From: Tribonema minus
Lineage: Eukaryota > Sar > Xanthophyceae > Tribonematales > Tribonemataceae
Direction: 5' to 3'
Assembly (NCBI GenBank): GCA_017506865.1
Contig: JAFCMP010000323.1
Location: forward strand, 496,001 to 560,000
DNA: 64,000 bases
Below, one piece after another: positions 1-64,000 of this stretch. Position numbers and translations under genes: made by a program. The notes beneath the pieces were generated by a model, which had not been told where the DNA came from, ran no database searches, and was given only the letters and a program-made list of their open reading frames with translations. Numbering within the stretch: the first letter of the stretch is position 1; every line of letters starts with the position of its first letter.

Positions 1-224
1 GACATAGATATGACCTCATTGTGCACATTAGTTAATGTTTCATTGAGGGCCAGGTAGGCAGTGCCCAGCACCGCCCTTGGCGGGTCAAGTGCCACGGCGA
101 CCATGCAGGCGCATTTGCAAAGCAGAGACGATCATGGCACGCGCCGACACGTGGTGCAGAAAACATGATAGTATTCGAGACCTAGTACAGCGCCACACGC
201 ACGCAACAACGATTCCTACAGTCG

Positions 225-240
225 CCCCCCCCCCCCCCCC
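225..240. repeat. C16 homopolymer abutting the ACP stop codon
   Basis: Sixteen C on the plus strand, directly touching the stop codon (243-241) of the minus-strand ACP gene, so the transcript would carry G16 straight after TGA. A similar tract follows the stop of the Rdx gene near 12.9 kb. Confidence 0.9.
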
Positions 241-1700: not shown

Positions 1701-1967
1701 ATCGTCCTGCGATGTGTTTGGGTCCGCCTTCCCCTTCAAATGCTGCACAGAGCCGGATCAGGTTACAGATAGTGAGACACAGGACTCTGGCTGAAAAGCG
1801 CGCCTGATGTACGCAACGCAAGCCTGCTACGCACCTGGACTGTGCTAAGGCGGCAGTGCTAAGGCGGCTTGTAGGCCTTCAAGAACGGCCATGTTAGCGA
1901 ACTTCATCACTTGAACATGAACACTTTTCATCGGGAAGTTCGAGGCTCATCCGCGTATACGTGTGTC
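1701..1967. promoter_or_regulatory. Divergent intergenic region, ACP / plastid protein
   Basis: 267 bp separate two divergent start codons. No TATA box was recognised. A short direct repeat, GTGCTAAGGCGGC-like, occurs twice near 1842-1870. A shared bidirectional promoter is inferred from the arrangement only. Confidence 0.35.
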
Positions 1968-4388
1968 ATGAGGAGACCTGCGGCGTTCGTCGTGTGTGTG
2001 CTGTGCGCGACGCCAGCGAGCGCATTCGTGCCCGCCAGCGGCAGCGCCGCTGCACGTGTGCTGGCGCTCTATAGCAGACCGAGCGAAGCATGCGTTAGAA
2101 GATGGTCATGCTTACGATTCGGTCTGTCTGGGGAGCTCAGTGACAGCAGCGGTGGTGGAGAAAGCAGCCCACAGTCATCTGCAGCAGATCTCGCCAGCAT
2201 CGTGGAGAGGAGTTTCGTCGTAGCATGCAGTGAAGGCGACTACACGGTGAGCTTTCAAGAATGTCTGCTGTGTTTCAGTTCGCATATGCCATTCGGCCTT
2301 CACAGGTTCGCTTTGCACTACCTGTGACATCAACGTTCTGCACAGCAGGCCGTAGTACCGCTCTTATACTGGTCGTCAACGTTCTGCACAGCAGGCCGTA
2401 GTACCGCTCTTATACTGGTCGTCGAACTGCTAGATCGATTGTAGTCAAGTACAAATACTAGTAATATCTGGTGTCGTATGTTTTGTGGCCGGGAGCGTGT
2501 ACATGAAGCTTTTGCTTTGCTGCTGCTCACAACAACACAGCCTTGACGATGGCCTGGAACAGCGCTACATCATGTCTAGCAGCCAATGGATAGGGCTGTC
2601 TGCGGCTCACAATTGCTCGCTCTGCATGCTGTTTGCCATGGCAGAGGGGATTGCAAGCCTTCATCTCGGCAATCATGAAGGCGTATGAGAGCGGCTTTGC
2701 AGTTCCAACGCTGTCAATGGAGATTGGCATGTGCGGCAACAACAGCGCTGGCAGGCCGCTCATGGCAGAGGAGGTGAGAGCTTCGACGCAAGCATGCACA
2801 CGTGCACTTCAGCTTGAATGCGCCCAGTTTTGTAGCAAGTACAGTATAGCAAGCACAGTGTTTGATTACTGCAGTGCCAGCTCTTGTCGGACAGTTATGT
2901 TGGGTGTTCGTTCCTATTTGACATTCACCGACTACAACGCGTGAACTCATGAGTGAGTTCATGTGATGGCAGATGAAAAGTGTGCAAGCATTCACACCAG
3001 GCCCTGCGCGTGCCCTATTCCAGCGCCTTCCGTGTGACTGCGCTCATTGTGTGTAGCTGCCATGGTGACAGCTCGTGCTGTGACCGTGTCACATTATAGT
3101 CGTTTAACGGCAGATCGCAGGCGTGTGTCTTCTTGAGGTATATTGCATTACCAAATTACCCTTTCCCAACCCCGTCTCAAGTGGAGCTTCGAACGGCGCG
3201 GATTACGCTGGAGTACGTCACTCTGGAGTGAGCATACCTAAAGTTACACCTGGGTCAGCGGTGTGCAAATGCTGACTACTATACGTCCGTCCTATTCAGA
3301 TGTACAGAGGACCATGTGTTGTACATACGTTGCATAGCTCACACGAAATGAATACCTCCATGCCCACCTTGTCATTGATGAACATTGAGACTGATAAAGC
3401 ACTTGCAACTCAGGTGGAGCCGCGCACTGTGTGGATGACGCTGGTGTACCTCACGCTAGAGCGCGCGCGGTGGGCATACATACATACCCACCGTAGTTGC
3501 AGATGTACTTTTTTGAAATGCTGCTGAAGCAGTAATAATAAATACTGCACTGCCACTTCCTTCGCAGGTGGAGCTGCGCACCGTGTGGATGACGCTGGTG
3601 TACCTCACGCTCGAGCGTGCGCGGTGGCCGCAGCGCGTGCCGCGGGCAGCGGGCATCAGTGCTCCGTTCAAGAACGAGTTTGACCCGTTTGTGGGCAACA
3701 TCATGCGCGCCCACTCGTCGGGCTACGATCTGAACGTGAGTGACATGTTGAGACATGTACTCGCAGTCTTCGGCTCGTGCGTTGTCGTAACTTAGGGTTA
3801 GGGTTAGGCAGGCATGCTCGCAGTTGTAGGGCGTCGCCGCTCCCGTTGAGAACGAGTTCGACCCGTTTGTGGACAACATCATGCGCGCCCACGCATTGGG
3901 CTATGGCCTGAACGTGAGTGACAGTGACATGTGCCTGCAGTGTTCGGCCCACGCCTTTTTTACATCATGCGTTTGGGGGTACCTAGGTGAAAAGAAGGGG
4001 GGGTAGGCAGGTATGCACGCAGCTGTAGGCCACATCACACGGGATGTACATGCTGTGTTGCAAACACGCCCATGGGTGTCCGCCCCTCCAGCGGACGTTA
4101 AGAAAGCACCTCAGGTATGTATGCACATATGGCGCTCCTCACCCTGCGGTTTGTCTCTCCACGCATGCGCGCCTACTGGTACTGGAGGTCTGGCGTGAAT
4201 ACACATTCGACGCTCCTCACCCTTGCGGTTTGTCTTCCCCCATGCATGCGCGACAGCGGCTGAAGCTGGAGGAGATGATGCGCGGGGGGACGGAGCCGCG
4301 CACCCCCTTTGAGGCAGCAGTGCTCAGCCAGTGCATGCGCATCGTCTTCATGACGCTGGAACTGATGAGCCAGGGGTGGGAAGGCTAG
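1968..4388 (+). CDS. Plastid-targeted protein of unknown function, four exons
   Basis: Exons 1968-2246, 2645-2773, 3568-3735 and 4257-4388; all introns are phase 0 with GTGAG donors, giving 235 aa. The N-terminus has a hydrophobic signal sequence (MRRPAAFVVCVLCATPASAF) ending in the ASAF junction diagnostic of import into complex plastids, then an Arg/Ala/Ser-rich transit region. The mature part is helical with no catalytic motif that I recognise: exon 2 has AIMKAYESGFAVPTLSMEI, exon 3 VELRTVWMTLVYLTLERARW and FDPFVGNIMRAHSSGYDLN, exon 4 RLKLEEMMRGG and MRIVFMTLELMSQGW. The latter two resemble each other, suggesting internal helical repeats. ATG 1911 upstream is in frame but would bury the signal peptide. 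A donor-like GTGGGA just before the stop leaves open a longer C-terminus. Decayed copies of exon ends flank exons 3 and 4. Confidence 0.65.
3184..3917 (+). repeat. Partial copies flanking exon 3 of the plastid protein gene
   Basis: The exon at 3568-3735 has copies of its 5' half upstream (about 3412-3475, nearly identical; about 3184-3225, more diverged) and a copy of its 3' half downstream with the GTGAGTG donor (about 3840-3918). None contains a whole exon. Confidence 0.8.
4130..4272 (+). repeat. Upstream copy of the exon 4 acceptor region
   Basis: About 57 bp at 4130-4186 resemble 4208-4272, covering the pyrimidine-rich acceptor and the first bases of exon 4. The copy lies upstream, as for the other exon 5'-end copies in the window. 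Confidence 0.65.
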
Positions 4389-7190: not shown

Positions 7191-7194
7191 GTGG

Positions 7195-7620
7195 CGGTGC
7201 CAGAAATCGGTGACGCCAGAAGTTGGGGATGTGCCAATCGTCCACTGCGTAAGCACACCAGCTGGAAAACCGCGGCGCACCGCCGGACCGCTCACGCCGC
7301 GCTGCCAGCGCCGCTACAGGTCAGCGACGCCCCGAGCTGCTTGCGGCGCCGCCCGTGAGCTGGAGCCTGCGCACACCGGCAGGAGTACCGAGGCGGTCGT
7401 ACGATGCCCCTTGACAGCAGCGGGCACGGCTCACCGCCAGAGCACACCCGCAGGCCGTCCAGTGCCTGGTACGGTGCACTGGCAGCGGCGGGCGTCGCGC
7501 GTCGCTAGAGGCCGGCGACGACCCCCAGCAGCCGCGAGCACAAGCGCGCGCTGGCAGAAGAAGCGCCGTAGCGTCGCGCGCGATGCCCTGGCAGCTGCCG
7601 CAGCGCGTGCCAGCTGCGCT
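7195..7620 (-). repeat. Serial decayed copies of the 3' end of the ABC transporter's last exon
   Basis: The coding end at about 7649-7740 recurs at about 7505-7610, 7314-7400 and 7195-7225 with increasing divergence away from the gene. Each still shows the GGCGACGCC...AGCTGC core and the stop-codon region. They lie downstream of the stop. Confidence 0.75.
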
Positions 7621-7648
7621 AGTGCGCTGCGCAGCGCAGCACGCGCTG

Positions 7649-7940
7649 CTAGAGGTCGGCGACGCCCCAGCTGCCGGCGGCGTCGCCCGCGAGCACGAGC
7701 GCGCGCGCATGGAAGCGCCGCAGCGTCGCGCGGTGCCCCGCGGAGACGAGCGTCGCGCCGGCGGCGCGCAGGCGCGCCATCGCGTCCGCCTCCGCGTCCT
7801 CGCCAAGCGCTGACGTCGCCTCGTCCAGGAGCAGCAGGCGCGGCCGGTGGTACAGCGCGCGCGCGAGCGCGAGGCGCTGCGCCTCGCCCGGCGACAGCAC
7901 GTTGGGCCAGTCGGCGACGCGCTCGAGCCCGGCGCTGCTG

Positions 7941-7972
<32 letters not shown>

Positions 7973-10900
7973 ACGCAGCAGGTGCGAGAGGCGCAGCTGC
8001 TGCAGGATGTCGGCGACGCGCGCGCGGCCGGCGGCGCAGGCGACGGCGGCGTCGCGCCACTCGCGTGGGTAGACGACCTTTGCGGCGGCGGCGGCGGCGC
8101 GCGTAACGATGCACAGCGCATAGCGCGTGAATTGATGGCGGCTGCCGCGCTCATGCTGTGTGTTTGAAGTGTGTGATGAGAGTGTGCGTAGAGTCTAGCA
8201 CATGAGTTGATGTCGGCTGCCGAGCTTACGGTTGGCTTTGAAGTGTCCTTCGAGCTGACGCGCAGAGTCTGTGAAAGCCCTTCGGTGGCAGAGACACATG
8301 TACTGTGTGAGGCGGCGGCGGCTGCGGCGACAGCGGCACATGAGTAAACTACCTCTGCAGTGACCGTTAGGCAATGCACACAGACAAATCCATTTATGCT
8401 ATACAAAACAAGGCACACAATGCAGAACTTCACATCGCAGTACGTCTGGCACCAACGCGCGCGGACAGCACGCACCCTGACCACTAGCTTTACGTATTCT
8501 GCTCACGAGCTATCTTCGCCTCTGCTGCCCCGCATACACAGGTGTAGAGGCACGCATCAGCGCTCAGCGCCGCAATACCTGCATACCCCACGCACCTGAT
8601 CCGCTAGCGTCCCCACGAACGTGTACGGCTTCTGCGGCAGAAACATGATGCGCTCGCACTCATACTCCCCGCCGCCGTCGCCGCGCGCGCCACCAGACCA
8701 GTTTTGCGCCGCCCCGCCACCGCCGCCGCCGCTGCTGCCGCAGTGCCGCACCGTGCCGCCGCGCGGCTCCCACAGCCCCGCCACGACGCGCAGCAGCGAC
8801 GTCTTGCCGCAGCCGCTCGCGCCGCAGATGAGCACGTGCTCGCCCTCCGCAACACTCAGCGACAGGTCGGTGATGAGATTGCCGCCGTCGCCGCCGCCGC
8901 TGCCGCCGCCGTTCTCCGTGCCGTTGCGGAACCATGCGCTGTCGCCGCCGGCGCAGCCGCCCGCGCTCGGCCGCGCCACCGTCACGTTGCGTAGCGTCAG
9001 CAGCGCGCCGCCGCCGCCGCCGCCGTTGCTGCGCGCTTCCTCCGCCGCCTCGTCAGCGCCGCTGCCGCTGCTGCTGCCGCGGCTGCGCGCGCTGAGCATG
9101 GCCACGGCGGCCGCATCGCCCTTATTCGCATCATCGTCCTCATCGCCATCAGCGGCAGCAGCGGCGGCGGGGATGTCTAATTCGGGGCGGTCATATGGCG
9201 ACAGCTTGGCGGAGGCCGCGGCGGTGAAGCCTGCGCCGCACAAGAGCTCCATGACGCGGCCGGCGCTGGCGCGCACGACGGTGAGCGACGCGCTCGCGTC
9301 GAGCCCCATGCTGAAGGCGTTGATGATGTAGAGGCACGAGTACGAGCCGCGCGCGAGCAGCGACGAGATCTCCGCCTCGCTCGCGGCGTGCGCCTGGCAT
9401 GGGGGTTGGGGGGGGGGTTGGGGGGGGTCAGATTGAAAGAAAGTAGTAGGCCCAAATGAAGGATAGAGGTTGGTCGAGGTGGGAATTTAGACGCCAACCG
9501 TAAACGTGGCATCGTCGCTGCCGACAGTGACAAGTCTGACATGGGGGACGCTGAGTGTTGCATGACGAGATCTCCGCCTCGCTCGCGGCGTGCGCCTGGC
9601 AGGGGGGGGGGCGCAGGGGGAAGTTGTGGCGTTGGGGTTTAGCATCAGAATTAGGGTTAGGTCAGGGTTAGGGGTTACGGATCAATCACGCTGAGGGTGG
9701 CATGATGAGGGGATCTGCGTCGGCGCACCTTGGTGAGATAGAAGATGAAGCCACCCGTGTAGGTATGCATAAGCAACATGCAAGTAGGGTATGTAGGTAT
9801 CATACACCGTTTTCGGCGCACCTTGGTGAGGTAGAAGATGGAGATCCCGACGGCGGCGTAGTTGACGATGGACCCCACGTAGTCAAAGAACTGGACGCAC
9901 GCGTACAGCGGCAGGTGCGCCCACAGCACCCGCCAGCGCGCGTCAACCGCGCTGTTGAAGTAGTAGCCGAGCCGGTGACGCTCCGCGCGCGCCGCCGCCG
10001 CCGCGCCGTAGAACGCCACCGCCTCCGCGTTCGCCCGCAGCCACGCGTGCGCGTAGCGGAACGTGCCCTCGCGCCGCTCGGCTTCGTAGACGCGCGGGAC
10101 GACGCGACGCAGGACGACGGCGTTCAGCGCGCCGGCGAGCGCAAAGTACGCGTAGCACGCCGCGGGCGCCACCCAGCCGAAGAGCGCCGCGACGTACCAC
10201 GTGTAGTACGCGAGCAGACCGGGGACGACGAGCGTCTTCTGGATGACTTCGCCCATCGCCGTGGTGAGCGCTGCCGCGTCGCTAACGATGCGCTGGTCGG
10301 GGTTGTCGACGGCCGCCGCCGCCTTGCCGCCGCCGCTGCTGCTGCCGCTGCTGCCACCGCCCGCGCGCGTGAGCTGGTACGGCACCGTGCCGCGCAGGTA
10401 GTGCGCGTGCAGGTACCTGCGCGCGAATCGACAGGTGTGTGAACATAAGACGATTGTGCGTTGGCGTGCATGATGCGCGCTTAAAGAAGCAAGTCACACT
10501 TGAAGTACTGTGTTGAAGTTGGTGGCGGGCGCCTGCGGCGTTCTTGCAACAGCGGCGCTCTGTGTGCGGGGAAGGCTGGCAGCGGCGCACGTCGGTGCGC
10601 GGGGGCAGTGCTTTGCGCGGTCATGATGCGTTACGTGCAGCTGAGCACTGTGACAATTGGCGGCGGCGGCAGCGCGTGTGGCCGCGGAGCTGGCATGGCG
10701 CCATGCTGCGCATGTGGCGCGCGTGTTTATGCGAGCACCGCGCGCATGCATGTCCACGCTGCGCGTGTGCATGCGCTTGTATGCGCCGCCGGCATGGGGG
10801 GAGCGCAGGGCTGCCAGCACATCAGGGGGCGCATGCACGCACAGGTACAGGCAGGCGTAAAAGACTGCTGCAATTTGCGGAGGCGGCAGCGCTTGCTGTC

Positions 10901-12899: not shown

Positions 12900-12902
12900 G
12901 CT

Positions 12903-14329: not shown

Positions 14330-17300
14330 ATGCGCTGCGGATGCTGTTCAGTGGCAGCAGCAGCAGCTGTCTCCATGACAGTGTGGAATGGCGTCGCTGG
14401 CAGGGCCTTGGCATTCACGGCACCCGGTGCCATGCGCAGGCACTGCTTGCTTCAGCATAGGAGCTCGAGTCATGGAGAAACAGCTGAAGGTCGCTTGCAG
14501 CCTTATTCACAGGAGGCCTTGCAGGCGAGAGTGGATGCTGCCCACAGGGAGCTAGGGAGACCCTGCAGGGTTGCTGTTGTGGGAGCAGGGTTTGCAGGTA
14601 AGCTGGCTGCTGCAGCACGATTAAACATGTGATGCGCTCTGTAGGACACATACTTGAAATCAACAGTTCGACCAGAGACCTCATTTCTCGGCATCCTTGA
14701 CGACACCACGATCCTTGTGCTCCACTCGAGGGGAGCTCAAATGCACAGATGCAGTCACGCTTTGGCAATCAGCGTTGCTTGAATTTAAGGCGACCAGCGG
14801 GTGCAGACTTTATGTTCTATAGTGTACAACATCTGCGGGTTCGGCCCCTCTGTACATGTCGCAACCAGCCAGCAGGCGCAACATGATGCACAACATTAGC
14901 AGCAGTTCGTTACTTGGTCAAACAAACATGTTAGCATCTCGCCTCCAGCAATGTAGTGCTCGTTTTGCTGTAGACCGCCTTGTGCTCAACCTGTGGACCA
15001 TATGGCTAGTTCTACCTCTCATATACCGTAACGACTGTCAGCTTCAAGAGCAGCTTGGCTGGTTGTACTCAACATGCATGCATGTGAGGTCGGGTGTACG
15101 TGCATGGCGGTATGCATAGCTTAACCACCACGACACATATGGGTGGTGGGCAGGGCACATTGGTTCATCACGCTGAACTATGACAATGTGCGCTTCGGGC
15201 TTTGATGTGCGCAGCAGTGACCCCGCTTTGCGCCATGCAGACCTCTCAAGCAACAGCTCCTCAAGTGCTGTGAAAGTGCTTGCGATTGAACCATGTCCAT
15301 AGGCCTAGTTCTGCTGTCCTCATCAAACTGGTTGAGCTGGCTACGACTACAGCAAGAATGCATTGATGCTGTGGCAGTGTAGGTGCCCAAGAGAGTTCTG
15401 ATGCCGTCACCTCATCGAGGTGCGGCGGCGCTTTGGCGGTGATGCGCACCCTGTATGTATGTGACCCACTATGCAGGCCTCGCCACTGCGCACAACCTCG
15501 TGTCGTTCGTGCGTGCGTCACCGTGTACGGTGACCACGATCTGCATTCTCTCTGTGCACCACCCGCTCTGCAAGCCCTCGCAGCGATAACATCTCGGTAC
15601 ACTGTGTTGCTGTGCACGGTACGCCATGTTGCCGTGGATAATGTTGCAAAAGCGCATGCATGCATGCATGCCGCACACGGTCGTGTGTATGCTTGCCGTG
15701 CGCAATGTGCCCTCTGCAGGCACACGAGTGTGCGCTACTGTGCATGCTGATGCACAAGTGCATGCATGCTGCCACGTCTTCTGATACAGAAGCGCATACC
15801 GCATGTATGTGACCCCCTTTGCTGGCCTCGCGACAGCGTACAACCTGGTCTCGTTCGGAGTATGCGTCACCGTGTACAACGGCCACCCTCTGTACGCCAT
15901 TCACTCTACAGGCCTCGCATCAAAAACATCCTGTGGCTCGGCGCACGTAGGGTTGTTGTGCGCGCTGGCGCACAAGTGCGTAACACAAAAAACGCTGTAT
16001 GCGATTCATCACTCGCAGGCCTTGCGACAGCGTACAACCTCGTGTCGTTCGGCGCATGCGTCACCGTGTACGATGACCACGAAGCGGGCGACGGAGGCGC
16101 GTCTGCCGTCGCCGCCGGCATGTTGCACCCCCTGACGCCGCGCGGGAAGCTGATCTGGGGCGGCAAGGAGGGCCTTGCGGCTGCCATGGACCACATCGAG
16201 GTGCATTTGAAGTTGTTTCATTTATGTACTTCAGTGTATTATCAAAACGTGTTCATGTTGACCTACTTAAAAATGCTGACCTGTGTGCTACAAGGCCCCC
16301 CAGGAGCTGTTGAAATTGGGTACATGAGTTGATAAATGTGTCACCGGGGGAAGCTGATCTGGGGGGGGCGAAGAGGGGCTAGCGGCTGCCATGGACCACA
16401 TTGAGGTGCATATGAAGTTTTCCTTTTTCACTGTACTTCAAGTTTTTAGGGACTGAGCAATGCTGACCTGTGTGCTACCAGGCCCCTCAAATGCTTCAGT
16501 CTGTTTGAACTGGGTGGCGTTAGTGTTGTTTGATGTGTCATATCGCCGTCGCCGCCGGCACGTTGCACCCCTAGCGCCCCGGGGGCAGGTGGGTCGGGGG
16601 GGGGAAGAGGGCCTGGCGGCAATCATGAACCGAATTGAGGTGCAGTCATTGAGTCAATATGTACTGCATCCATATGAAAACACTTCAAGGAGTACTTCAG
16701 TATGTACATTGTGGAAGCAGGTACTTCAGTACGAAGTATATAAGTTCACACACGAGCAGTTTTGAAGCTTGTGCTGGAAGGCCCACTCAGGTGCTGCATT
16801 TCATGTGAACTGGTCACTACTGACATGATTGCAGGCAATCTGCTCAGCAGCTCAATGCGCTCCTGCCATGCGACCAAACACTCATCACGGCTCAGCGCAC
16901 AGTGCGCTCAATGATCGAGTTTTCTGCTTGAACGTAACAGCAGCGGACGTGTTGGCATGTTTCTGGCAATTTCCTTGGCCCTGATATCAATTGATGCTCC
17001 TCTTTGTGGCAGGCCGCCACGCGCGCGCTCATCACGGCTCAGCGCATAGTGCGCCCGATCATCAAATTCTCTTCTTCGCATATTTCTCACATCCCTAATA
17101 TCATCTGATGCTCCTTTTTGTCAGGCCGCCACGCGCGCGCTGCGCAGCGCCGCGCTGCTGCCATGCGACCAGACACTCGTCACGGCGCAGCGCATAGTGC
17201 GCCCAATCATCAACTTGTCATCCTGAACGTAATTGCGGCGGACATGTTGGCATTTCTCTCTCATTTGACTTTGCACTGGTGTCACTTCCTGTTTCTTTTT

Positions 17301-18465
17301 GTCAGGCCGCCACGCGCGCGCTGCACAGCGCGGCGCTCCTGCCGCGCGACCAGACGCTCATCACGGCTCAGCGCATAGTGCGCCCGATCATGGACGCGCG
17401 CGCGCACGACATGTACGCGAAGGCCGCTGCCGCCAACCCTCAATGGCTCAGGTCAGGGTTGTGGTGTGCATCACGTCGATTCACAAGACGGGCCTTGCGC
17501 CATTGCTGATGCCACCAGTCCAGCATTGTTGCTCTCACGGCCCAGCCCGGGCACCCCGCAGAAGCAACACCGGGCTAGCCTCTTTGCGCATCAACTGTCC
17601 CCTGTCACGCACATCATGTGGCCGTGTTTGCCATTCATGTTATTCCATTGCTCAGTGAATGCGTACGTGCGGTGCGTCAGAACAACTTCAACTCTGCGCC
17701 GCGCAGCCACCCATCCGCCGGGGCTGCGAGCCCCCGTAATGCAGACTTCCCAATGTTGATACATGCGCCGTAAGTCAATCAAATACCATCGTTCGTGACA
17801 GTTCGAGTCACTCGTGACTCAACCACTGACTGACTCACGACTCCCGCTCTCAGGTGGCTTACAACAGAAGAGCTGTGCGACGCGGCGCCCGGCACATCGC
17901 CCGACGCACTGGCAGGCGTCGAAATCGCCGGCGCCATTGCCATAGACTCGCGCCTGTACCTGCGCGGCCTGTGGGAGGCTTGCCGGCAGGGGGGGCGACG
18001 CTCCGCAACGGGAGCTTCAACTTCAATATCAACCTCAACAGATGCACAGACGGGAGCGTCATCGGAGGCCGGCGGACGGGCGAGCCCGTCAGGGGAGCGT
18101 CACGGCACGTCGCAGAGCCAAGTTGAAGTTGACACGGCCAAGCGCCGCTCCGAGAGCAGCGAAGGCTCGCGGTCGCACGGTGCGGGGGCTGCATCAGCAG
18201 TTGCGGGGTTACGCAATGGGGGGAAAGGGGGGGGGGCGCGGTGGGTGCACGAGCGGCTCACGCAAGCCGCCGTGGGGGCCTTGGTGGAGGGGGAAAACGC
18301 GGGGTTTGATGCGGTTGTGCTGGCGGTTGGCTTTGACGTAAAGGCGTTCCCGTCGCTGGCGGGCGTACCGGGGCTGCGGCTGGTGCGCGGGCAGAGCGTC
18401 GTGCTCGCCGCCGCCGACAGTAGCAGCGGCGGCTGTGGCGGTGGCAGCAGCAGCGGCAGCGGCGA

Positions 18466-18499
<34 letters not shown>

Positions 18500-39900: not shown

Positions 39901-42900
39901 TGTACACCTGACCCTAACTAAAACCCTCATTCTAACCCAAACCCTACCCTTAACCAGACCCTAATGTCTGACCTGAAATGTATTTCTGCAAGGGCAAAGC
40001 GTTCTTGGCGCTCGTACACCTCGCCCAGGCCGAACCAGCCGTTGTACTGCTGCTCGCTGATGCTGATGCACGTGCGGTAGCAGGTGATCTGCGCGGCACG
40101 GCGGTAGGGCAGCACGACTCAGCTGTGGTGGAAACATGTGGTGCATGGCGTTTTGGCATCACATTGTGTGTGGCTTCACACATGTTGGGCTTCGCGTTAA
40201 CATCGACATGATCATCTGCATCGGGTAGAAACATTGGTGCAAGCGTGTTTGGCTTCACATTGTCCTCTGAGCTGAAAAGAAACATATGGTGCATGGTGTT
40301 TTGGTATCACGTTGTCGTCTGCATCGGGTAGAAGCATGTGTTGCACAGTGTCTGCCGAAGCAAAAGAAGCTCGCAGCTGCCCAAAAAATACCCCACACTG
40401 GCTATAGAACCCTAACCCTAGCCACACGAGCACCACTTCCAAGGCCACCTAGCGCTGCACACAAGCACTCTACTGATGAAATCACCGGCTTCACGGCAAC
40501 TGCAACATCGCCGGCCACATCCAGGTCAGAGTCAAAATCAGAGTCACTAACTGCCTTGATTGCAACATAACAGCACCGGCCGCGTTCAGAGTCAAAATGA
40601 GAGTCACTGACCGATTCAGAGCAAGAACATATCATCACCGCCCACACTCAAAGTCAAAGTCAGAATCAGAGTCACTCACCGCCTTGTCAAAGTCCTCCAT
40701 GAGTACGTACTCGTGACCGCAGAGGGCATGCGCGTACGCCATGCGGGGCGCCACCTGAGGGAAGAAGATTAATAATATATTTGTCAATATTTATGATACA
40801 CAGTAGAATACTTCAAGGAGTAAATTGAGGTGCACAGTTGTTTTGTCGCTGCTCTGATGCAGAGGAGAAAGAGCTCAGCCCTGCCCGAAGACGAAAGGGA
40901 CAATAAGAGAGAAAAACAACAGCAATACATCAAGCTCGCCTCAAGCAAGGAAAAAACAAATACTTCAAGCGTGGAAACATCAAGAACATACTTCAAGTAG
41001 CACAAACTGAGATGCGCCGCTGTTTTCTTGCTGCCCTGACAGAGCGGAGGAAAAGTGCGGTGCCACCGGCTGCAATAGGCGATACCTACATGCCTGCCCT
41101 CGAAGCTATGCATCAACGTCAGTGCTCAACTAACCCAATTACCTGTGCTGCGAACAGCGACATACATGCTCTCGAAGAGGAGCATCAATCTCAGTGCTCA
41201 GCAAGTCTTGACTTCTCTAGTTAGTGACCTGTGCCGCGCGCAGTAACAGCTCGAGCGTCCGTGTGAACTCCTTGGTCATCATTCGATACCTACATTCCTG
41301 CCCTCAGCCATAGGCATCGACATCAGTGCTCAGCGAGTCCAGTGAGTCACAGCTCGAGCGCCTGCGCATGTTCCTTGATCATGAGTTGATACCTTACATA
41401 CCTGCCCTCAATATTAGGCATCGACGTCAGTACTAAGCGAGTCCAGTGAATTAATAACCTGTGCCACGCATGCTCCTTGATCATGAGTTTATACCTCCAT
41501 ACCTGCCCTCAATTATAGGCATCAGTGCTCAGCAAGTTCACCTGTGCCGCGCGCAGGAACAGCTTGAGCGCCTGCGCGTGCTCCTTCTGCTTGCTGAAGC
41601 AGTTGCCCGCGACGCACCTGGCGCGCGGCGACATCAATCACCATGCAGCACTGCTCAGCGCAATATTGTGTGCATCATAGTGCAATATCGTAGGTAGTGT
41701 AGCGCATGACATGGCCAAAAGCACGGTGGCATCCACGGGGGCCCTTGGTGCAGAAGTTGCTGCCTGCGAGGTTAGGGTTAGGGTTTGGTCTGCACGACAT
41801 CGCTGAAGCAGAAGCTGCTGCAAAGCACAGACCCTCAGGTGACGCGACAGAGCGCTGCTGGCAAGGGTATGTATGCTTGGCGCAAAGACGCACGGCATCG
41901 CTCTCAACAGAAAATCATTGCACACACCAGGCCATAGCTGCAGACTTCAACAACCTCACAGTGAAGTTTGCACCATTTCAACTTGCCACTCACCATGTGA
42001 CAGGATGTAGCCTATCAAAGTCGAGCGCGCGCTGCGCCAGGTAGCACAGGTCCACCTGAGCGTTGTTGAGGTTACGGGAATTGAGGTTTGCGTCAGAAAT
42101 AACAGGAAGCACAGCCAAACCCGCGAAGGAATTACGGCTTGGGGGTAAGGAACGGGACGAATGCGCAGCCAAAGCATGCAATCGGGGCAGGAATCGGGGG
42201 TACGAAAGCGCGCGGCTGCGTAAATGAGGGGTACAAAAACGCAAAAAAGGAGTTTGGCGGGTGCTGTCAACAACAGGGCGTAGTCGGAGCCAAGAGGGAG
42301 GTTGGTGAGGTGCATGAATGATTGGCGTTGAATGACAGCATAGCGGGAGAGGGGTGAGATGCGCAGCGTGAGCGAACGCGAATGTGAAGTTGCAGGGCAG
42401 AGCGGGGTTAAGTGGGCACGTGTTCACGCGAATTCATCCATGATGGTGAATCCACCAGCATTCGCGTGATTTCTACGGTAACAGGGCCAAAGCAAGATAC
42501 ACCTGAAATCCAACCCTCACGCCAGAAGCATTGCTGAACAGGAAAATCACCATCATGAAGGCATAGCTGGTTGAACAAGGGCAACGGTACTCCTGACACT
42601 GAATGCGCTCTGCTGAAACAAAAAAGAAGCACCAGCATCGTGCAGATACAAGAACTGTGTGAATTTGGTGAAGCTACACCTGACACTGAATGAAACAGAA
42701 ACACCAGCATCATGAACATGCATTTGTTTGAATGAGCGCTGAGTCACTGACCTGTCTGTTCAGATGCCACAGACAGGAGCTCAGCAGTTCCAGGCCGTCG
42801 AGACGGTGCGGCTCAAACTGCATCATGTACTTGAACGCTGCGGCAACAGGCAGCAGGGGTGATGGGTAGGTCAGAGTTTGGGCGAGGCTCAAACTACATC

Positions 42901-45900
42901 ATGTACATGCACTGCGGCGGCGGGCAACATGAATGAAGCAGTAGCGGCGGCGGCGGCGGCAGCAGCGGCAACAGCAGCGGAGGCAGCAGCAGTAGCAGCT
43001 AAGAGAACCACAAATCACGTAGTAGACCCCACCCCCCCTCCCCCCCCTCTTCGCCCAGTCTAGTCGTGTTGATACTCTGTGATGTGCGGTAGCGGCCAGT
43101 ACAACAATGTGCGGCACGCGAACAATGGTACATGTTGCGGGGTACGTAGAGAGTTATCAAGTCTGCTGCTCTTGCAACAGACTGGTCCATAAGACTGCCA
43201 TTTGGACAGGCAGTGCCAGGCCGAAAAAGGTCTATAGTGAGGTGGTCAGGCGTGGCACTAACCCTAACCCTAGTAAGCCACTTCATCGTCAGATCAGAAA
43301 GAGCGGCACACTCTTCAGGCTGGCAACCTGTGAAGCAGCACATGCAGGCGGCCAGAAAAAACACACGTGGCGGCCGCAATCTTGACTAGGCCGAGCTATC
43401 CAAGTCAGGCAATGGCGAGCAGGCAAAGCAAAACTTCAAATTTCAGGTGCATGAAACGTGCCTTGAACTGCGACCAAATTAGATACTTCAACTTGAAGTG
43501 CATACCTTGAGCTGCGCTCTCGTAGTCGCCCATGTAGTAGTACGCACGCCCAATCTGCAACGGCGCAAGAGCCCGCGAGTGATGATTAGCCGATGCATGT
43601 ACAAGCGTAAGTTCATCATGAGAGCACTTGCTTCAATAGCGGTGCAAGTTAAAAGCAACTGTCAGCGTGTAATGATTAATTGATGCAACTGCAACTTCAA
43701 CTTCAATATAGCATAAGGCTAAAGCGCTTTGGCGCCTTCTCGCGGAGCGGAGCGCAAGACAGGCCGCTCAGCGGCGCACGCGCAGCCAGTAAACTGCAAG
43801 TGACGCCTGCTCTGCTGAGCAACAATGCCTCCTCACATGCCGCTAAGCTTCATTCAGCAGGTGCAAATGCAATCTCGTCAGTTCTGTCGAGCGGCGGATG
43901 AGCGCTGCCGCAGCGCGAATGCGTAACTGCAGAGCGCTGCTGCTTCTGCGTGCAGTGGGCAGCGCGGGTGAGCTGATGACCTCAAACGCATCGCTGTGCT
44001 GCGTCTGCAGCTTGCGCAATCATGGACCAATGTGCATGGCCGACACCCCCCAGAAGGGGGTATGCTGCTGTACTTCAAGACAGCGATCAGCTGAAGGACT
44101 CAATGACTCGTACTCACTGACTCATTGGTGACCACATGCAGCGACGCATGCACTATATATCTGCATGCAAGCAGAACCCGATTTTGAAGCATCCAGGCAT
44201 TTGTTTTCCTTCCGAGGTTGAGGTTGAAGCTCTATGTAGGGTTGATATCAAGGCTAGGGTTAGGATATGGTTGGGCAGTCGTACCTGATTCTGCACCCTG
44301 GGGTTGAGGTTTGAGGTCTAAGGTTGAGGTTAAGGCTAGGGTTAGAGGGTAGGGTTTAGCCGTTGTGCCTGGTTTCCCACCCTAGAGTTGAGGTTCAAGC
44401 TCTAGGGTTGAGTTTAAGGCTAGAACTAGGGTTGGGCGAACGTACTGCACCCAGCCTGTGTTGAAGTGCGGCACGGGCAGCTTTTGGATGCACTACATAT
44501 CTGCAAGCAGAACACGAACCTACTGCATAACAGGCATTTATCTAGGGTTGAGGTTGAAGCTCTAGGGTTGAGGTTAAGGCTAGGGTTGGGCGGTTGTACC
44601 TGACTCTGCATCCAGCCTGTGTTGAAGTGCGGTACGGGCAGCTTGTGGATGCAACACATATTCGCAAGCAGCACACGAGGTTGCCGCATCGGGCAGGCGT
44701 TTTTCCTACTAGTAGGGTTGAGGTTTAAATCTCTACAGTTGAGGGGGATAAAGGCTACGGCTAGGGGGTAGGCTTGGGCGGTTGTTGTTTACGTTCATTA
44801 TGGTACCTGGTTCTGCACCCAGCCGGTGTTGAAGTGCGGTACGGGCAGCTTGTGGAGCGTCTCCACCGCCTCCACGCAGCGGTAGAAGCTCACATGTTGA
44901 TACGCGGTGCCTGCGAGTCAACAAGTGTCGCGGGCCGATATTAGGTCGGAGGCATCCAGTTTGACGGCTAACCACACCTTGTCACCTAGAGCTCCATGAT
45001 CTTTTGACTCGTTTCCATCAGGGCCATTGTACCTGCCACGTGCAACGCTGAACTGTGGTATCCAAAGTGACGTACTTGTCTCGGCAAGTTGTCATTGTCC
45101 AGATACAGTACTCTCACACAAGGTTCATCGAGGGATGTGGCCGTCAGACTAGAGGTGGCGCATTCCTTCACATTATCCGACAATACCAGAGATTACACGG
45201 CTTTCTTAATGTTTGGCTCAATCCTCATGTGCATTCAGTCTCCTCTAGGGCTAGGGTTAACCCTAATCCTAAATCATTCATTGTCCTCCGTCACAGTTCA
45301 CTCAATTTGCCCCGCCAGCACGTGCGGAGCGGTGCCCCATCATGATGATGAATTCACCATCACGAGTTCAATGCAATGTGAATGCAGAGCACATTCACTC
45401 AACAGGACATGAACATCGTCACTCACTCATCATGTAGAGCAGCGCAAAAAAAATCCGTTCACCAAGGGGATGGTGTCAGGGCGAGGTTAGAAATGAGCTA
45501 GCATGCGCACAGTTCCAGCAACGAGGCTTGGTGGGATGAGGAGCAGTGAAATTCATGTGATTCTACTGCATCATGTTGTTCGATCAGGAAAGTGATGATT
45601 TAGAAAGTCATTTGGTGCTAGTTCAGCATGCAGCAATTCAATGCTACTTCAGCATGCAGCGCCACTCACTAATTATGGAGAGCAGCTCGATGAACTCTCT
45701 TGGCTCTACTTCAACATGCAGCGTCACTCACTCATGATGGACAGCAGCTCGAGGAACTCTCTCTCCTGCGCCGCATTGTCAGCGCTCTCCTCCCCCTGCA
45801 GCGGATGCTCAGCGGGGGTCTGCCCCCCTTGCGGCAGCTCAAACTCGGGGGGTTGCGGTGGCGTCCACCCCGCTCTTGGCCCCCCCTGCATGCCCCCCGC

Positions 45901-45995: not shown

Positions 45996-46043
<48 letters not shown>

Positions 46044-49000: not shown

Positions 49001-52000
49001 CGCAGAAGGAGCATCGAAAGCTGGGCATACAGTACTATATGGCTTCTTCAAGTGCTTGGATAATGCAGCAGCGAAAATTATGACTCACCGCGGATGAGTG
49101 GAGTCGCGAGTCCCCCAGCTCGCTGTCCCCGGGCGTCGCGCTCTCCATCGTGTATCGCCTACTCGACCCATCTTCAACACCAGTCCTAATGATCACTTCA
49201 ACTACTTGCAGATGCGACTCACCACGGATGAGGGGAGTCGCGAGTCGCCCAGCTCGCTGTCCCCCGGCGTCGCGCTCGCAGTTGTGTCCCTGCTCGACCT
49301 AACGACTAGCCAGAAATGAGTGTTCTCACTTCCAAATCTGTATCAATACTTCAACTACTTGAAGATATGACTCACTGCGGACGAGGGGAGTCGCGAGTTC
49401 CCCAGCTTGCTGTCCCCTGGCGTCGCGCTCGCGATCGGCGGGAGCGCAATCGCAGACTCCCCAACACACCAGCCGTCAGATGATCGTTTCTTTTTTCAAT
49501 ACGCCACTTCAACCTTTTGAAGATGCGACTCACCGCGGATGAGCGGAGTCGCGAGTCCCCCAGCTCGTTGTCCCCCGGCGTCGCACTCGCTATCGGCGTG
49601 AGCGCGATCGCAGAGTCCCAGCACACCTGCCGTCAGATGATCGTTGCTTGATTCAACACACCTCTTCAACTACTACTTGAAAACTACTACTTGAAGATGT
49701 GACTCACAGCGTGGAGGGTCGTGAGTCCCCCAGCTCGCTGTCCCCCGGCGTCGCGCTCGCAATCGTGATAGCAACTTCACCTAAACCTCAACACACACTA
49801 GCTCCTAGACACTTCAGAAGTATGATCGTTTCTTCGAATACACCACTTCAACTACTTGAAGATGTGACTCACCGCAGACGAGGGGAGTCGCGAGTCCCCC
49901 AGCTCGCTGTCCCCGGGCGTCGCGCTCGCGATCGGCGTGAGCGCAATCGCAGAGTCCCCGAACAGCAGCCCGCGCCGCGCGGTGGCAGCCACAGAGGGGG
50001 TCACGCCCCCTCCCGTGTCCATGCTCACAGAGGGGGTCTCTCCCCTGTGGAGCGACGGCGTTGTGCGCGACGGGGGGGCGCGGTAGGGGGGCGGCCGCGC
50101 ACCGCCGCGCCTGCTGGCCAGGAAGTCTGGAATGGACAAGGCAGAGGGGGGGGGGAGAGTCATCAGTGCTCAGCGGGTGCCTAATATGGATGCTCCGTGC
50201 TAGCTCATCAAATGCAACAAGGAATGCCGGACAGACACGCGAGCAAGTCCGATGCCAGACGATGCTTTGTAGGGTATTGGACCTCGGATGTTTGTTTTCA
50301 AGTACACACTATAGAGTTACCAAGCGGTGTTCGAGGATGCATACACGTACACACATATCAGCCCACACACATATCAGCCCACCCTGCTCTATGCTTTGCA
50401 GGCATTCCTGTGCAATGAAGTCAGCCTGCCCCTATCCCCTATCAGCGCGCAAGAGAGAGAGAGAGAGAGTTGAGGTTCAGACGTCACTCAGGCCACGGCC
50501 ACCGCACACAGTGACCGCAAGCTCACATGGCTAACCCCATGCCCCAGCAATGTCACGAGCGCACGCGCAAGCATAAATTGGAAACCACAATACAGCTAAT
50601 AAGACAGTGTGTCGCACGTACCGCCGCGCAGGCTGTAGCTCTGCCCCGGAGAGCTGCCCCTGGATATCACGCTGCCTGGTGTGAGCATGCCCATGGTGCC
50701 GCCGCCGCCAATGGCCATGCTGCTGTGCGCCCACGTGCAATTGCTGTCAAAGGCAGTGAAATAACAGGCTGTTGAGTAAGACAGGTACAGCCCCCAAGCG
50801 TACACACGCGATGCGTTTTACATACAGTATGCTATGTATAAGGATGAGCGCTGCCGCCAATGGCCACGCTGCTGTGCGCCCACGTGCAGTTGCTGTCAAA
50901 GGCACCGCGATCAACAGGCTATGAGTGAGTGAGTGTATAGAAGCACACTCCAGGATGAGAACAGGTGCCGTCGCCGATGGCCGCAAGTACTGCTGCGCGC
51001 CCATCCTGGGACTGGGCCGGAACAGACTCATCGCCATGGAAGCTTCCCTATCTGAATGACAATTCTGCCTAAATGTAACCGTAACCCTAACCCCAGACAC
51101 TAGAGGTTAGAAACGGAACGGAACCGAAACGGAAAACGGAATAAAAATTACGTTTAACATAGGACACGGATACCTCTGCAGGTCCACTAGCATACTCCCA
51201 TGACATTCAAAATATCACGTTCTGAAACCGAATTTTAAAAACTGAAAAACGAAACGGAAATTTTCCAGGAAAACCGTGTTTGAACCGTGTTTTTAAACGG
51301 AACGATAAACGAAAACGGAACACGGAAAAACGGTTCCGTTTTATGTGGGTTTGCCGCGTTTGCGTGCTTGTGTGGTGCCAGACACCTGTCCTGGTGGGTG
51401 CACTGCACATTGTGCAGCATGGCGATGATGCAGGCATTTGCTCTAACTGCTTGACCCAACCTAAACAAGTTAAACTGAAAGTTGAGGTTCAATTTTTTTT
51501 CGCAAAGCGGCTTGTGTTTGGACCACAATCCTACAACTAACGCCTATGCCCTGACTGCTTGTCAGGGTGTTCCGTAATTAGCGGTCGCTCCTGCAACTAG
51601 CTGTCTCAAATGCGCAATCGCCCCCCGTTTTACTGCCGTACTGTGCCGAAATGCTGGACAGAGTCCATTGTATCGGACCAGACGACATCAATGTATGACA
51701 TGCCATGTAGTTGCAACCTATTTCTCCATGCTTGCTCGGCCAATGGGGTTAAGCACGACCATAGTGTTAGCAGCATTTGTGCATATCGTGGTGGGCAACT
51801 GCACAGGCTCTGCCACGGCTGCACAGGCTCAAAACGCCACCAAAACGGAACGAAACACGGGTTCTGTTTTCCAAGGCTATGGTGCAGCACCAAACACAGT
51901 TAAGTTGATTGATTAACTGCAACTCCAGGGAGCACATGTCGCACCGTAACACAGGGGTGGTAGTGCAGTAAACTATGGACCTTGAAAGTACACCTGTTTC

Positions 52001-60500: not shown

Positions 60501-63500
60501 GGGACGCGGAGCAGGCGGAAGCCGCGGCGCGGGAGCCGTGCCCCAAGAGGGCTGCCAGGGGCGCCGCCGCTGCCGCGAAGCAGCGCTCCGGCGGCGCGGC
60601 GGCAGCAGCGGCGGCGGCAGCAGAAGGAACGATGGTCGCTGCTGACGGCAGCAGCGGCGGCGGCGCGCTGAGCAGCGCTGCTGCCGTGCAGGAGGGGCTA
60701 TCGCGCGCGCAGCGCAGCTTTGTGGAGCAGATGCGGCAGCTGGTCGGGGCGATACAGGCGTGCGGCGGCGGTGGCGGCGGCGGCGGCGGCAGCAGCGTCG
60801 GCGGCGGCAGCGATGCTCTGGCAGTGCTCAGTGAGAGCGACGCAGCTGCTGCGGTGGCGGACCAGGATGTGAGTTCTGGCGCCAAAGTACTGTGTGCTGC
60901 ATACATAGTGCTGGCAGATAGATCCGCAGGTGTGCAAGTATTCACGCCTGAGTTCAGCTTTTGACAGCAATTGTCTCGTCTCATTGTACATCGGGGACTC
61001 TCGTGGCCTTCGTTCACTGCATGTGTTGTACAAAAGTCTACCAATGCGCGCTGGATTGATGGCAGGTCTCGGAGTGCATCAAGTTTCCGCAGACGTATGC
61101 ACAAGTGAGACGCGCTTAGAAGTCATCAGCTACAAGAGCTGGCCTACGCACCATACCCGCTTCAAAAATACCTAACCCTAACCCTAACCCTCAAATATGC
61201 TCCGTGAGAGTGAGCACTGATGCCACCATAGTTTGGATGAGCTGCCTGCAATGTCGTGCAAAAGCAGTTCTGATTCTTGCGCGCATGAGTTGCTTGCATG
61301 CAGAGAGAGTACTAGCGCAGCCGCAACGAGCAGGGGGCTTTAAAACCTGTTCATGGTCCATCATCATTTATTATCACAATTATGCTGATTTCACCACAGT
61401 TCGGATGAGCTGCTCCTTCATGCAACGACAGTTCTGACGCACGTGCGCTGCTCACAAACAGGGCCGAGTACTGTCGCAGCCGCTACGAGCAGCTGGCTGA
61501 AAACCGTCCATGCTCCACGAGAGTGCTCGTTTCGCTGATGCCACCACAGTTCAGATCAGCTGCTGCTTCGTGCAACGGCAGTTCTAAAGCATGTGCGTTG
61601 TTCGCTAACAGGGGGAGTACTGGCGCAGCTGCTATGAGCAGCTGGCGGCGCTGCGCAAAATGACTTATGATGAATTAATGCAAAATGAGAGCAATCATTA
61701 TGATCATGTCAGCACAGTGCATCCCCCGCTTGCAACCTCTCTGAACTGCAGTTCTAATGAATGTGCATCGTTCACTAATGTGCGTTGTTCGCTAACAGGG
61801 AGAGTACTGGCGCAGCCGCTACGAGCAGCTGGCCGCGCTGCGCATGACGGAAGCGGAAGAGCAGCTCAAGGCGTTCAGGGACCACGCGGACGAGAGGGCG
61901 GCGGCGCAGGTATACCTACATGCCTACATGAACTACTTGAGCTTTCTCTTTAAGTTTGCCGTGTGGAGTTTGCCGTCATGCGATATCATGCCCTTTCTAA
62001 ATACGGAGCGGAAGAGCAGCTCAAGGCGTTCAGGGACAATGCGGACGAGAGGGCGGCGGCGCAGGTATACCTACATACCTACGCACCGTAAACTACTTGA
62101 ACTTGCTCTTGAAGTTTGAAGAGGGCGGCGCAGGTTACCTACATGCCGTCGCATCAGGGTTCATTGTGATTTCATGTTCTCTTACGACTTCATATCATCA
62201 TTCGTCTACGCCTCATGTATGCACCAAAATGCTGGCGTCGCAGCATGAGGGAACTGGCCACACTTGGACTTTCGCAGGTTATACCTACATGCACGCCACA
62301 AGGTTCTTTTGTAGCGTTTCATTTCTTAGTCCTGTTGAAGAGAAATGAAATCTGGTACGACAAGCACCATCATTCATCAATGCCTGGTGTATGCACCGAG
62401 CGCCGTCCTGCGCAAGAAGAAGAATCTGAGGAGCAGATTTCAAACATGCCATTGGTCGCCCTCTAGCTGACATCCCGCGCATCGTGTGTAGCCGTGCATT
62501 GAGCGCTCTTGCACGATGACGAGAGAGGTGGATGAGGCCTGCATGCCGTTTAAAGTTCTTTGTGACAGCTGTAATCTCATGTTTTTCAACAGGGTTGTAT
62601 CATCATGCAAATCTACGCCTCGTGTGTGGCACTGAAATTGCTGCGGGAGTGTGGACTGCCCATTCTTGAACTTTCTCTGGAAGTTGGCCATGTGAAGTTT
62701 GCTGTCATGCGACATCATACCATTTCTAGACTACTTCACCTGGGTGGCTGGGCTTTCTGTATTGCCTACCAGCTAGGCTTAGGTAGCGCTTGCTGCAGCT
62801 GCACGCCAACTGTAGTTAGCCTAGTTTCAACAACTTCAAGTGATGCTACGCTGCCGCTTCCCGAAGTCTCTCAGCAGAAACATCACACTCTATTCCGCAC
62901 GCCTCTTCCCCCTGTCCACGCTAGGTCACCCGCAACTTCAATTTGTGCTTTTCATACCTACAACTTCAACTTGTCGTGCACGCGCAGTCCGCGCTGATTG
63001 AGCACCTGGAGCAGCAGATCGCTGACCATCAGCAGCAGCAGCAGAAGCTGAGCACTGCCATGCCACAGCGCTCAACCAGCAAGAAGAAGCGCGCAGCGCC
63101 GCTGCCCCCCGCCACCGCGGAGACGCCTGCGGGCACCGGAAAGGAGGGGACCACACAAACTTCACAGCAGGTGACTTGCCATTGCTCGATTCGGCAACCA
63201 TTGCGACTGACTGGGTGCAGGCACCTTGTGTGTGAGGTTGTATGCAGAGCAGTTCGGAATGGGCGTAGTGGCACACAACTTCAAATACTGCGAAGCAGTC
63301 ACTACTTTCAAAATTCATTGCAATTATGTATTGAAGTACAAGGTTGTATTATTTTTTTGATCGAATTGCTTTTTAGTGAGCACTTGCTAGATTAAGACTG
63401 CCGTCAGTCAGTACCTGGATGTCATTTGATCTTGCTACAAAACGTATTGAGACAGTTCTTGTTCAAGTCACTTGGATGATGATATGCGGGCCTGCTGCGC

Positions 63501-64000
63501 CATCAAGCGCACCATGCACTTCACGCCTGCTGTTGCAGTTCCCAGTGCTGGACTATGTGTGCGCTGTGCGCCGGGCCAGGTGGCGGCGCTCGAAGCATGT
63601 CAATCGAACTTGCTACATTACGTACTGAGACAGTTCTTTATTGAAACCATTTTGATGATGATATCATCAAGTGCAAGGTGCACTTCACATATGCCCTTGC
63701 ACATCACACGCAGCCTCCACTCCCGCAAAGCCTGTGCGTGCCTCCGCTGTGCATCAGATTACCATGTTGAATACCCCAGAGCTGATGAATGTGTACGCTG
63801 TGCGCTGTGCCAGGTGGTGGCGCTCGAAGCCAAGGTGGACCGCCAGAGGGCCCTGCTGCTCGTGTATCAGCAGCTCAGCAGCCTCGCCCTCAACTTTGAT
63901 CCTGAGGACAGTGCACAGTCTAAGGTGAGTTGTCAAAGTGCAGCCACGTGATGTTCCTGCGTAATGAATATATTACTGCTATGTACAGTGGATGTATTCA
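57511..64000 (+). CDS. Coiled-coil nuclear-type protein, possibly monopolin Csm1/Pcs1-like (3' end outside)
   Basis: Exons 57511-57537, 57713-57800, 58224-58390, 58927-59091, 59483 (or about 59695)-60868, 61799-61909, 62988-63170 and 63814-63924, continuing beyond the window; all joins are in phase and mostly phase 0. The donor at 59092 is GC (AAG|GCAAGT). The first half is basic and disordered (KLTKRKAVKG; TPAKGQPKKGEEATKK), then a large Ser/Ala/Gly-rich exon with RKRSREK and KKRTDRR-type nuclear signals. The second half is coiled coil: YWRSRYEQLAALRMTEAEEQ, SALIEHLEQQIADHQQQQQK, and VALEAKVDRQRALLLVYQQLSSLALN. Coiled coil followed by a conserved 'yQqLssLal' helix resembles the entry to the Csm1/Pcs1 globular domain, which would lie past the window end. 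That domain is not seen here, so the family name is tentative. It is divergent from CDC27. Confidence 0.6.
61290..62070 (+). repeat. Copies of the 61799-61909 exon ends
   Basis: Upstream copies of the acceptor end (CAGGG.GAGTACTGGCGCAGC.GCTACGAGCAGCTGG) at about 61608-61655, 61458-61502 and, weaker, 61300-61335. One downstream copy of the donor end (GCGGAAGAGCAGCTCAAGGCGTTCAGGGACAATGCG...CAG|GTATACC) at 62005-62068. Confidence 0.9.
63425..63790 (+). repeat. Upstream copies of the 63814-63924 exon, 5' end
   Basis: TATGTGTGCGCTGTGCGCCGGGCCAGGTGGCGGCGCTCGAAGC at about 63555-63598 copies the acceptor and first bases of the exon. The flanking ACTGAGACAGTTCTT...TGATGATGATAT recurs at 63448 and 63627, so the duplicated unit is about 180 bp. 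Confidence 0.85.

Follow-up and report, generated by a model that had tools for sequence, protein, structure and literature searches.

Polarised partial copies of exon ends in Tribonema minus: a probable outcome of short head-to-tail duplications

The stretch of DNA considered here, referred to as the window, is 64,000 nucleotides long and corresponds to positions 496001–560000 of contig JAFCMP010000323.1 (C323) of the xanthophycean alga Tribonema minus (assembly GCA_017506865.1; 158.18 Mb in 554 contigs). It carries, on both strands, exons of an ABC transporter gene, of a gene encoding an FAD-dependent oxidoreductase (DAO) and of a CDC27/APC3 gene, together with exons of unnamed proteins, and most of these exons are accompanied by partial copies of themselves, called echoes below. 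The echoes follow one rule: copies of the 5' end of an exon, with its acceptor, lie upstream of it, and copies of the 3' end, with its donor, lie downstream.

Exons of the window and their echoes

Thirteen parent exons were defined in the window by an open frame and splice sites; they were chosen after the arrays of copies had been seen, and two of them were marked as doubtful. The exons and echoes described are listed below by window position, with the percentage similarity of echo to parent.

3568..3735, plus strand: parent exon of gene 1 (unnamed protein), open frame, acceptor cttcgcag, donor gtgagt
3414..3473, plus strand: upstream 5'-end echo of 3568-3735, 93.3% over exon positions 1-60, acceptor AG kept
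3181-3228, plus strand: weaker second upstream 5'-end echo of 3568-3735, AG changed to AA
3849..3913, plus strand: downstream 3'-end echo of 3568-3735, 87.7% over exon positions 104-168, donor GT kept
8597..9393, minus strand: ABC transporter parent exon, Pfam PF00005 (E 4e-9) in open reading frame (ORF) 8560-9486, exon ends placed by eye
9564..9595, minus strand: 5'-end echo of 8597-9393, upstream on that strand, 100% over exon positions 1-32
7498..7580, minus strand: possible copy of the terminal part of the final ABC-gene exon (7642-7732), after the stop (as read from the sequence), 74% over 94 bp, offset 144
16019..16200, plus strand: parent exon a of the DAO gene, Pfam DAO PF01266 (E 1.3e-6) on 16015-16200
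15477-15539 (87.5%) and 15825-15886 (87.1%, AG lost), plus strand: two upstream 5'-end echoes of exon a
16345-16405 (86.9%) and 16545-16639 (77.3%, outside the well-anchored rows), plus strand: two downstream 3'-end echoes of exon a, GT kept
17306..17451, plus strand: parent exon b of the DAO gene, open frame, acceptor tttgtcag, donor gtcagg
16857-16918, 17013-17062 (two pieces) and 17125-17210, plus strand: serial 5'-end echoes of exon b, 85-100%
36086..36220, minus strand: CDC27/APC3 parent exon, residues ~729-769 of an 824-residue chain (PDB phmmer, E 8e-6 to CDC27)
35925-35978, 34838-34893 and 34630-34670, minus strand: downstream 3'-end echoes of 36086-36220
36331-36367, minus strand: upstream 5'-end echo of 36086-36220
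37855..37920, minus strand: parent exon, probably of the same gene as 36086-36220, open frame, both splice sites
Within 37376..37730, minus strand: three downstream 3'-end echoes of 37855-37920 (94, 92 and 80%), an array of period 171 by Tandem Repeats Finder (TRF)
38029-38057, minus strand: upstream 5'-end echo of 37855-37920
39973..40090, minus strand: CDC27/APC3 parent exon, residues ~638-659 of the 824-residue chain (PDB phmmer, E 1.2e-5 to CDC27)
39861-39909, 39736-39797 and 39327-39376, minus strand: three downstream 3'-end echoes of 39973-40090, donor GT kept in all three
44807..44910, minus strand: parent exon, open frame, both splice sites, presumably CDC27, though no search names it
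Within 44447..44649, minus strand: two downstream 3'-end echoes of 44807-44910 (95 and 93%)
49873..50130 (upper bound approximate), minus strand: parent exon, donor gtgagt
Within 49081..49765, minus strand: five downstream 3'-end echoes of 49873-50130 (84-93%), the farthest being the most similar
61799..61909, plus strand: parent exon (unnamed protein), open frame, both splice sites
Within 61305..61657, plus strand: three upstream 5'-end echoes of 61799-61909 (91-97%)
62003-62064, plus strand: downstream 3'-end echo of 61799-61909 (95%)

Next to the ABC transporter ORF, a second ORF (9678-10493) matches Pfam PF06472 (E 2.6e-27). In the phmmer search with 36086-36220, five designed or consensus TPR chains score above CDC27. 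Six genes had originally been counted in the window; at least the exons at 36.1 and 40.0 kb belong to one gene, CDC27, and six may thus be an overcount.

Comparison of the window with itself (E ≤ 1e-3) gave 86 direct and 7 inverted high-scoring segment pairs (HSPs). The two copies were separated by no more than 1 kb in 79 of the 86 direct pairs and in none of the inverted ones, and five dinucleotide-preserving shuffles of the window gave no HSPs. The 13 parents yielded 37 direct echoes, all on the side demanded by the rule. Among the 16 upstream echoes, 14 reach the 5' end of the exon and two are internal pieces (midpoints 0.40 and 0.47); 20 of the 21 downstream echoes reach the 3' end, the other being internal (midpoint 0.76). 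One additional match is inverted and looks like CCG low-complexity sequence, and one of the 13 parents, at 63.8 kb, has no echo. This count is partly circular and weak as a test of polarity, because the parents were picked after the arrays had been seen. The original prediction also held that older copies are pushed outward, an idea that found no support: in 12 arrays of at least three copies (the two pieces of one DAO echo being merged), the farther copy had the lower similarity in 46 of the 84 pairs (permutation p 0.29).

The window contains other repeats. A 650 bp direct duplication (20415-21061 and 23113-23739, 67% alike and 2.7 kb apart), far larger than the echoes, perhaps represents paralogous exons. 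A short dispersed sequence occurs at 34098-34279, 44960-45018 and 54754-54859 (78–92% alike), the second and third copies being in the opposite orientation to the first; it resembles a small mobile element. CCCTAA-like runs of telomere type are dispersed (53709-53755, 47707-47751, 37797-37824 and elsewhere), and a repetitive stretch of the ACGGAAACGGAA type was seen by eye twice, about 1 kb apart (51100-51320 and 52270-52380).

Polarity and distribution beyond the window

An independent test of the rule was provided by chaperonin (CCT/Cpn60) exon cores defined with Pfam, these cores being profile matches rather than exact exons. Scanning for this family returned 56 matches, distributed over 10 gene loci (own count); six of these loci were taken and yielded 33 parent exon cores. 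Echoes were present at 13 of these, and a search of the 13 cores against their own loci, on both strands, recovered 45 echoes, all of them direct (19 upstream and 26 downstream). All the upstream echoes begin within 14 bases of the 5' end of the core and all the downstream echoes have their midpoint in its 3' part; none of the 45 lies on the wrong side or spans the whole core. They group into 9 upstream and 10 downstream arrays, making 19 separate exon-end arrays. In four family scans, neighbours repeating a profile range obeyed the rule in all 15 classifiable cases (four for CCT, two for the second subunit of RNA polymerase and nine for MCM). Three other neighbours had been set aside as unclassified before this count: two read-through matches with at least three stops (C146:376030 and C457:482936) and a 31-position overlap (C279:809719/808720). 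An MCM match resembling a whole-exon copy proved to be a 3'-end echo with read-through. A wrong-order match to a light-harvesting (LHC) protein at C79, considered as an exception, was discounted, since it represents helix three of that same protein and its open frame runs to a stop codon; a similar wrong-order LHC pair is found at C1, the C79 pair being the one inspected.

The polarity first noticed in the window is, thus, real (45/45 chaperonin echoes, 15/15 classifiable neighbours and, for self-chosen parents, 37/37 direct window echoes), and the copies are not inverted, nor do copies of one exon end occur on both sides of the exon (79 direct against 0 inverted within 1 kb; 0/45 on the wrong side). 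The reported lack of whole-exon copies was confirmed among the 45, and is expected by chance (about 16:1 in the simulation described below). The claim that every gene has echoes was too broad: they accompany 13 of the 33 chaperonin cores, the Cpn60 locus at C511 has none, and none was recognised for HSP70, the 81 matches of which (73 of 98 candidates scored) included no duplicated profile range, with neighbours overlapping by no more than about 30 profile positions, at exon joins. Two HSP70 genes with matching exon structures lie in opposite orientations about 24 kb apart (C522:957211, minus strand, and C522:981609, plus strand).

Local duplication was also surveyed in 20 loci, each 10 kb long and on a different contig, placed at round coordinates and hence not strictly a random draw. 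Local direct repeats were found in 15 of the 20 (94 HSPs in total), which indicates that the duplication process extends beyond the window, albeit unevenly. The 14 inverted HSPs within 1 kb in these loci all start no more than 25 bp from their partner and are, therefore, palindromes or hairpins.

As regards the plastid, the assembly contains 92 LHC matches and no match to the RuBisCO small subunit. The best solved relatives of one LHC exon are LHCI polyproteins, followed by single-domain ACPI and CAC chains. These sequence matches suggest a plastid of the red lineage. COX1 yielded no useful signal on the genetic code.

Duplication units, recent events and the decay of the copies

The size of the duplicated unit was estimated from 309 kb of sequence, including the window and selected gene loci. 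The minimum offset of 125 repeat clusters had a median of 126 bp (interquartile range 97–169). TRF identified 70 arrays with a period of at least 25 in the same sequence, 12 of which were two-copy arrays with a match of at least 94% and a period of 25–97 (own count). The length of these 12 young units minus twice their period was between −6 and +2, with a junction overlap of at most 2 bp; an array length so close to twice the period implies almost no homology at the junction. These young tandem units contain no insert, which argues against an extremely improbable alternative, in which a mobile introner or transposon inserts at the edge of an exon and its target-site duplication copies part of the exon. 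Many pairs are indeed separated by sequence that cannot be aligned between units, as an inserted element would lead one to expect; but the spacers are alike within four arrays aligned side by side (a within-array comparison), and a DNA search of the 158 Mb assembly with one array, that of DAO exon b, matched its own locus only, in a search that skips very common words.

Recent events can be sought where two contigs are nearly identical. Part of the assembly is redundant or duplicated: C179:220031-224467 and C90:845101-849600 are near-duplicates, about 2% diverged, which may be alleles or the result of a recent duplication, and C489 and C70 are 99.9% identical over 4.9 kb, too alike for a haplotype comparison. 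The C179/C90 alignment (4.4 kb, 1.9% mismatches) has five insertions of at least 8 bp away from its ends; the two of at least 20 bp (24 and 29 bp) are tandem duplications, unlike the three shorter ones (13, 9 and 11 bp). The next 1 kb is 6–12% diverged. Redundant contigs of the C489/C70 kind might raise the suspicion that the echoes are an assembly artefact. This is scarcely conceivable, as most copies differ by about 2–25%, with a distribution over codon positions not expected of errors, and the polarity rule is common to many contigs.

The position of the copy ends bears on the claim that the duplications start at AG|GT sites, which was not sustained: the echoes stop at varied positions within the exon, with 23–141 bp of core copied in the chaperonin genes. 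In the model of Rogers, new introns arise from duplicated exon segments containing AG|GT, and the echoes would be by-products of this process. The copies do carry splice sites, and a potato intron has been described as born from a duplicated intron 3' side plus exon 5' side (PMC4974935). However, the parent exons already adjoin an intron, the other end of the echo is scattered in the exon, and the copies sit in existing introns, no new intron position having been shown in this genome. This explanation therefore appears unlikely.

Differences between echo and parent number 65, 46 and 135 at codon positions 1, 2 and 3 (of 858, 864 and 860 sites), whereas those between echoes number 132, 117 and 165 (of 996, 996 and 988; 0.133, 0.117 and 0.167), counts that are not independent, as echoes share ancestry. 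The divergence at positions 1 and 2 taken together thus rises from 0.064 between echo and parent to 0.125 between echoes, and that at position 3 only from 0.157 to 0.167. If the echoes are free to change and the parent is constrained, positions 1 and 2 should double and position 3 should remain almost unchanged, which matches the data. The echoes decay as non-coding relics, free of coding constraint. Stops are present in 4 of 831 echo codons. A frame-free test on all 221 blocks gave a mean share of 0.514, against 0.492 for the null and 0.519 for neutral echoes.

These data also bear on the possibility that the echoes are functional, as alternative or mutually exclusive (partial) exons under selection. 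In favour of such a role, the splice dinucleotides are intact in 53 of 57 well-anchored echoes (acceptor AG in 23/26, donor GT in 30/31) and in 61 of all 67 rows (27/30 and 34/37), and of the 16 changes that separate one echo (L029 491-583) from its exon, 14 are at third positions. The retention of AG and GT is, however, close to the approximately 50/57 predicted for neutral decay at about 6% loss per site (own estimate), giving no clear sign of selection either way. Furthermore, echo–echo differences are spread almost evenly over codon positions; gaps are present in 12 of the 45 chaperonin echoes and their totals are not divisible by three in 11 of these 12; the copies are partial, of many lengths and devoid of one splice site; and the CCT-epsilon exon and one exon of CDC27 each correspond to just one segment of the solved proteins. 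A functional role is very unlikely, and this reading, which the L029 echo had prompted, was discarded on the basis of the codon-position test.

Proposed origin of the echoes and known systems

The echoes are very probably best read as the outcome of frequent, random, short head-to-tail duplications combined with selection for an intact mRNA. A duplication spanning an acceptor would give the order intron tail, exon head, intron tail, exon head, rest of the exon; the upstream exon head, no longer joined to the exon, would become part of the intron. A duplication spanning a donor would give the mirror image, downstream. Duplications within the exon would break the protein and be selected out, and the stranded copies would then decay without coding constraint; repeated events, to judge from the arrays, would lengthen the intron. 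Direct orientation, polarity and the rarity of whole-exon copies all follow from the geometry of duplication together with selection, and polarity is best seen as forced by this geometry rather than as a separate law. In a simulation of random head-to-tail duplications, unit sizes followed the observed ones, exons were set at 150 bp and introns at 500 bp, and the wrong side was impossible by construction. The events fell at the two junctions in 18% and 18% of cases (36% junction-spanning), within the intron only in 56%, inside the exon in 6% and over the whole exon in 2.3%, giving about 16 junction events per whole-exon event.

The originally proposed tandem duplication across exon–intron boundaries is, thus, supported by the orientation, short distance, polarity and copied splice sites of the echoes, by the slower divergence of their exon part, by the young two-copy tandem units and by the two tandem insertions between C179 and C90; the intron part of the unit fits less well. 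The homologous extension of the intron flank beside the copied exon edge has a median of 11.5–31 bp of 40. Where the intron is homologous, the exon part differs between echo and parent by 0.086–0.095 and the intron by 0.145–0.164, as expected with one of the two exon copies constrained.

Several observations weigh against an origin in plain random tandem duplication. A plain tandem unit should leave more recognisable intron, the flanks being less alignable than this: 41 of 102 pairs pass our own homology cut for the intron flank (one echo string dropped), and intron substitution over the 102 pairs is 0.19–0.27, part-way to the 0.31–0.34 of shuffled sequence. In the homologous-intron subset, echo–echo divergence is 0.101–0.139 for the exon and 0.152–0.177 for the intron, where equality was expected. 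Fast turnover of introns, later deletions that trimmed the copies, biased detection and occasional ectopic conversion could each play a part in this misfit and are not separable here. The L029 echo looks as if temporarily constrained, and the share of third positions among echo–parent differences (135/246, 55%) exceeds a rough neutral value of 45% (own estimate). Duplication density is uneven, 5 of the 20 sampled loci having no local direct repeat, and the C179/C90 case amounts to two insertions only. In the adjoining 1 kb, C179 is longer by the second copy of a tandem repeat with an 82-bp offset, the copies of which are 77% alike; they are more diverged than the contigs, so that C90 may equally well have lost a copy as C179 gained one.

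The duplications would most likely originate from staggered breaks, filled in and rejoined with little homology, given the junction overlaps of at most 2 bp. Head-to-tail units, little junction homology and the lack of local inverted copies other than hairpins agree better with staggered breaks that are filled in than with fold-back or template switching. Short tandem duplications arise from the repair of adjacent single-strand breaks in plants. Those duplications are direct, local, tens to hundreds of base pairs long and have little junction homology, as here; they stem from an experimental lesion, whereas the action of such breaks in this alga would be deduced from their products.

Introns can lengthen as duplicated exon edges accumulate in them. 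Splicing would ignore the outer copies of both splice sites, as exon definition would do; which sites of echoes and exons are spliced is inferred from the sequence. Three introns were noted to contain 5'-end as well as 3'-end echoes, and in each of them the surplus donors lie ahead of the surplus acceptors (DAO, 16345-16639 then 16857-17210; L031, 1888-2277 then 2302-2363; L032, 2831 then 2923). It may be suggested, tentatively, that serial exon-edge duplication is a main route of intron growth in this lineage and is tolerated through exon definition: spare donors would lie before spare acceptors in every intron, no acceptor followed by a donor would create a false exon and the innermost sites would win. 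In that case, the genome would offer a natural experiment on how splice sites are chosen when near-identical ones compete. Arrays of such sites, in which the innermost alone can yield a functional mRNA, also provide a direct natural test of exon definition. Where introns obtain their sequence is still debated, and few instances of intron gain or lengthening through duplication have been proven; in this genome, many genes still reveal where their intronic DNA came from, with a graded divergence that would make rates, unit sizes and junctions measurable.

No report of serial exon-edge copies on a genome-wide scale was recognised among the open-access papers searched, judged by their titles and the opening of their abstracts; the precedents encountered are sporadic and confined to individual genes or to small sets. 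Introners resemble the echoes in the mass expansion of intron sequence in some lineages; in the account cited, they are dispersed copies of one element (PMC9860276), whereas echoes are copies of their own neighbouring exon. Direct repeats of 4–30 bp near both ends of introns, which also lie near intron/exon borders, have been read as insertion footprints (PMC11782384); as presented there, they are short and pair the two ends of one intron, whereas echoes place tens to more than 100 bp of an exon beside itself. In the AGGT model (Rogers 1989; Hellsten 2011; both as cited in PMC4974935), tandem duplication supplies spare splice sites, as here; as summarised in that source, it needs an AGGT inside the duplicated exon segment, whereas the echoes start at an existing junction and their other end is scattered. 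Among near-intron pairs in Drosophila, introns from tandem duplication include partial exon duplications turned into intron, as here, in 5 of 31 cases (PMC2891723); the cases outlined there duplicate exon interiors, whereas existing junctions are duplicated in T. minus. The geometry of the potato RdRp gene, in which an intron 3' side and an exon 5' side were duplicated once to give a new intron, is the same as here (PMC4974935); according to the part of that paper concerned with this gene, it was a single event that created a new intron and added exon sequence, whereas T. minus has serial copies of both exon ends in many genes, which are apparently intronic and lengthen existing introns.

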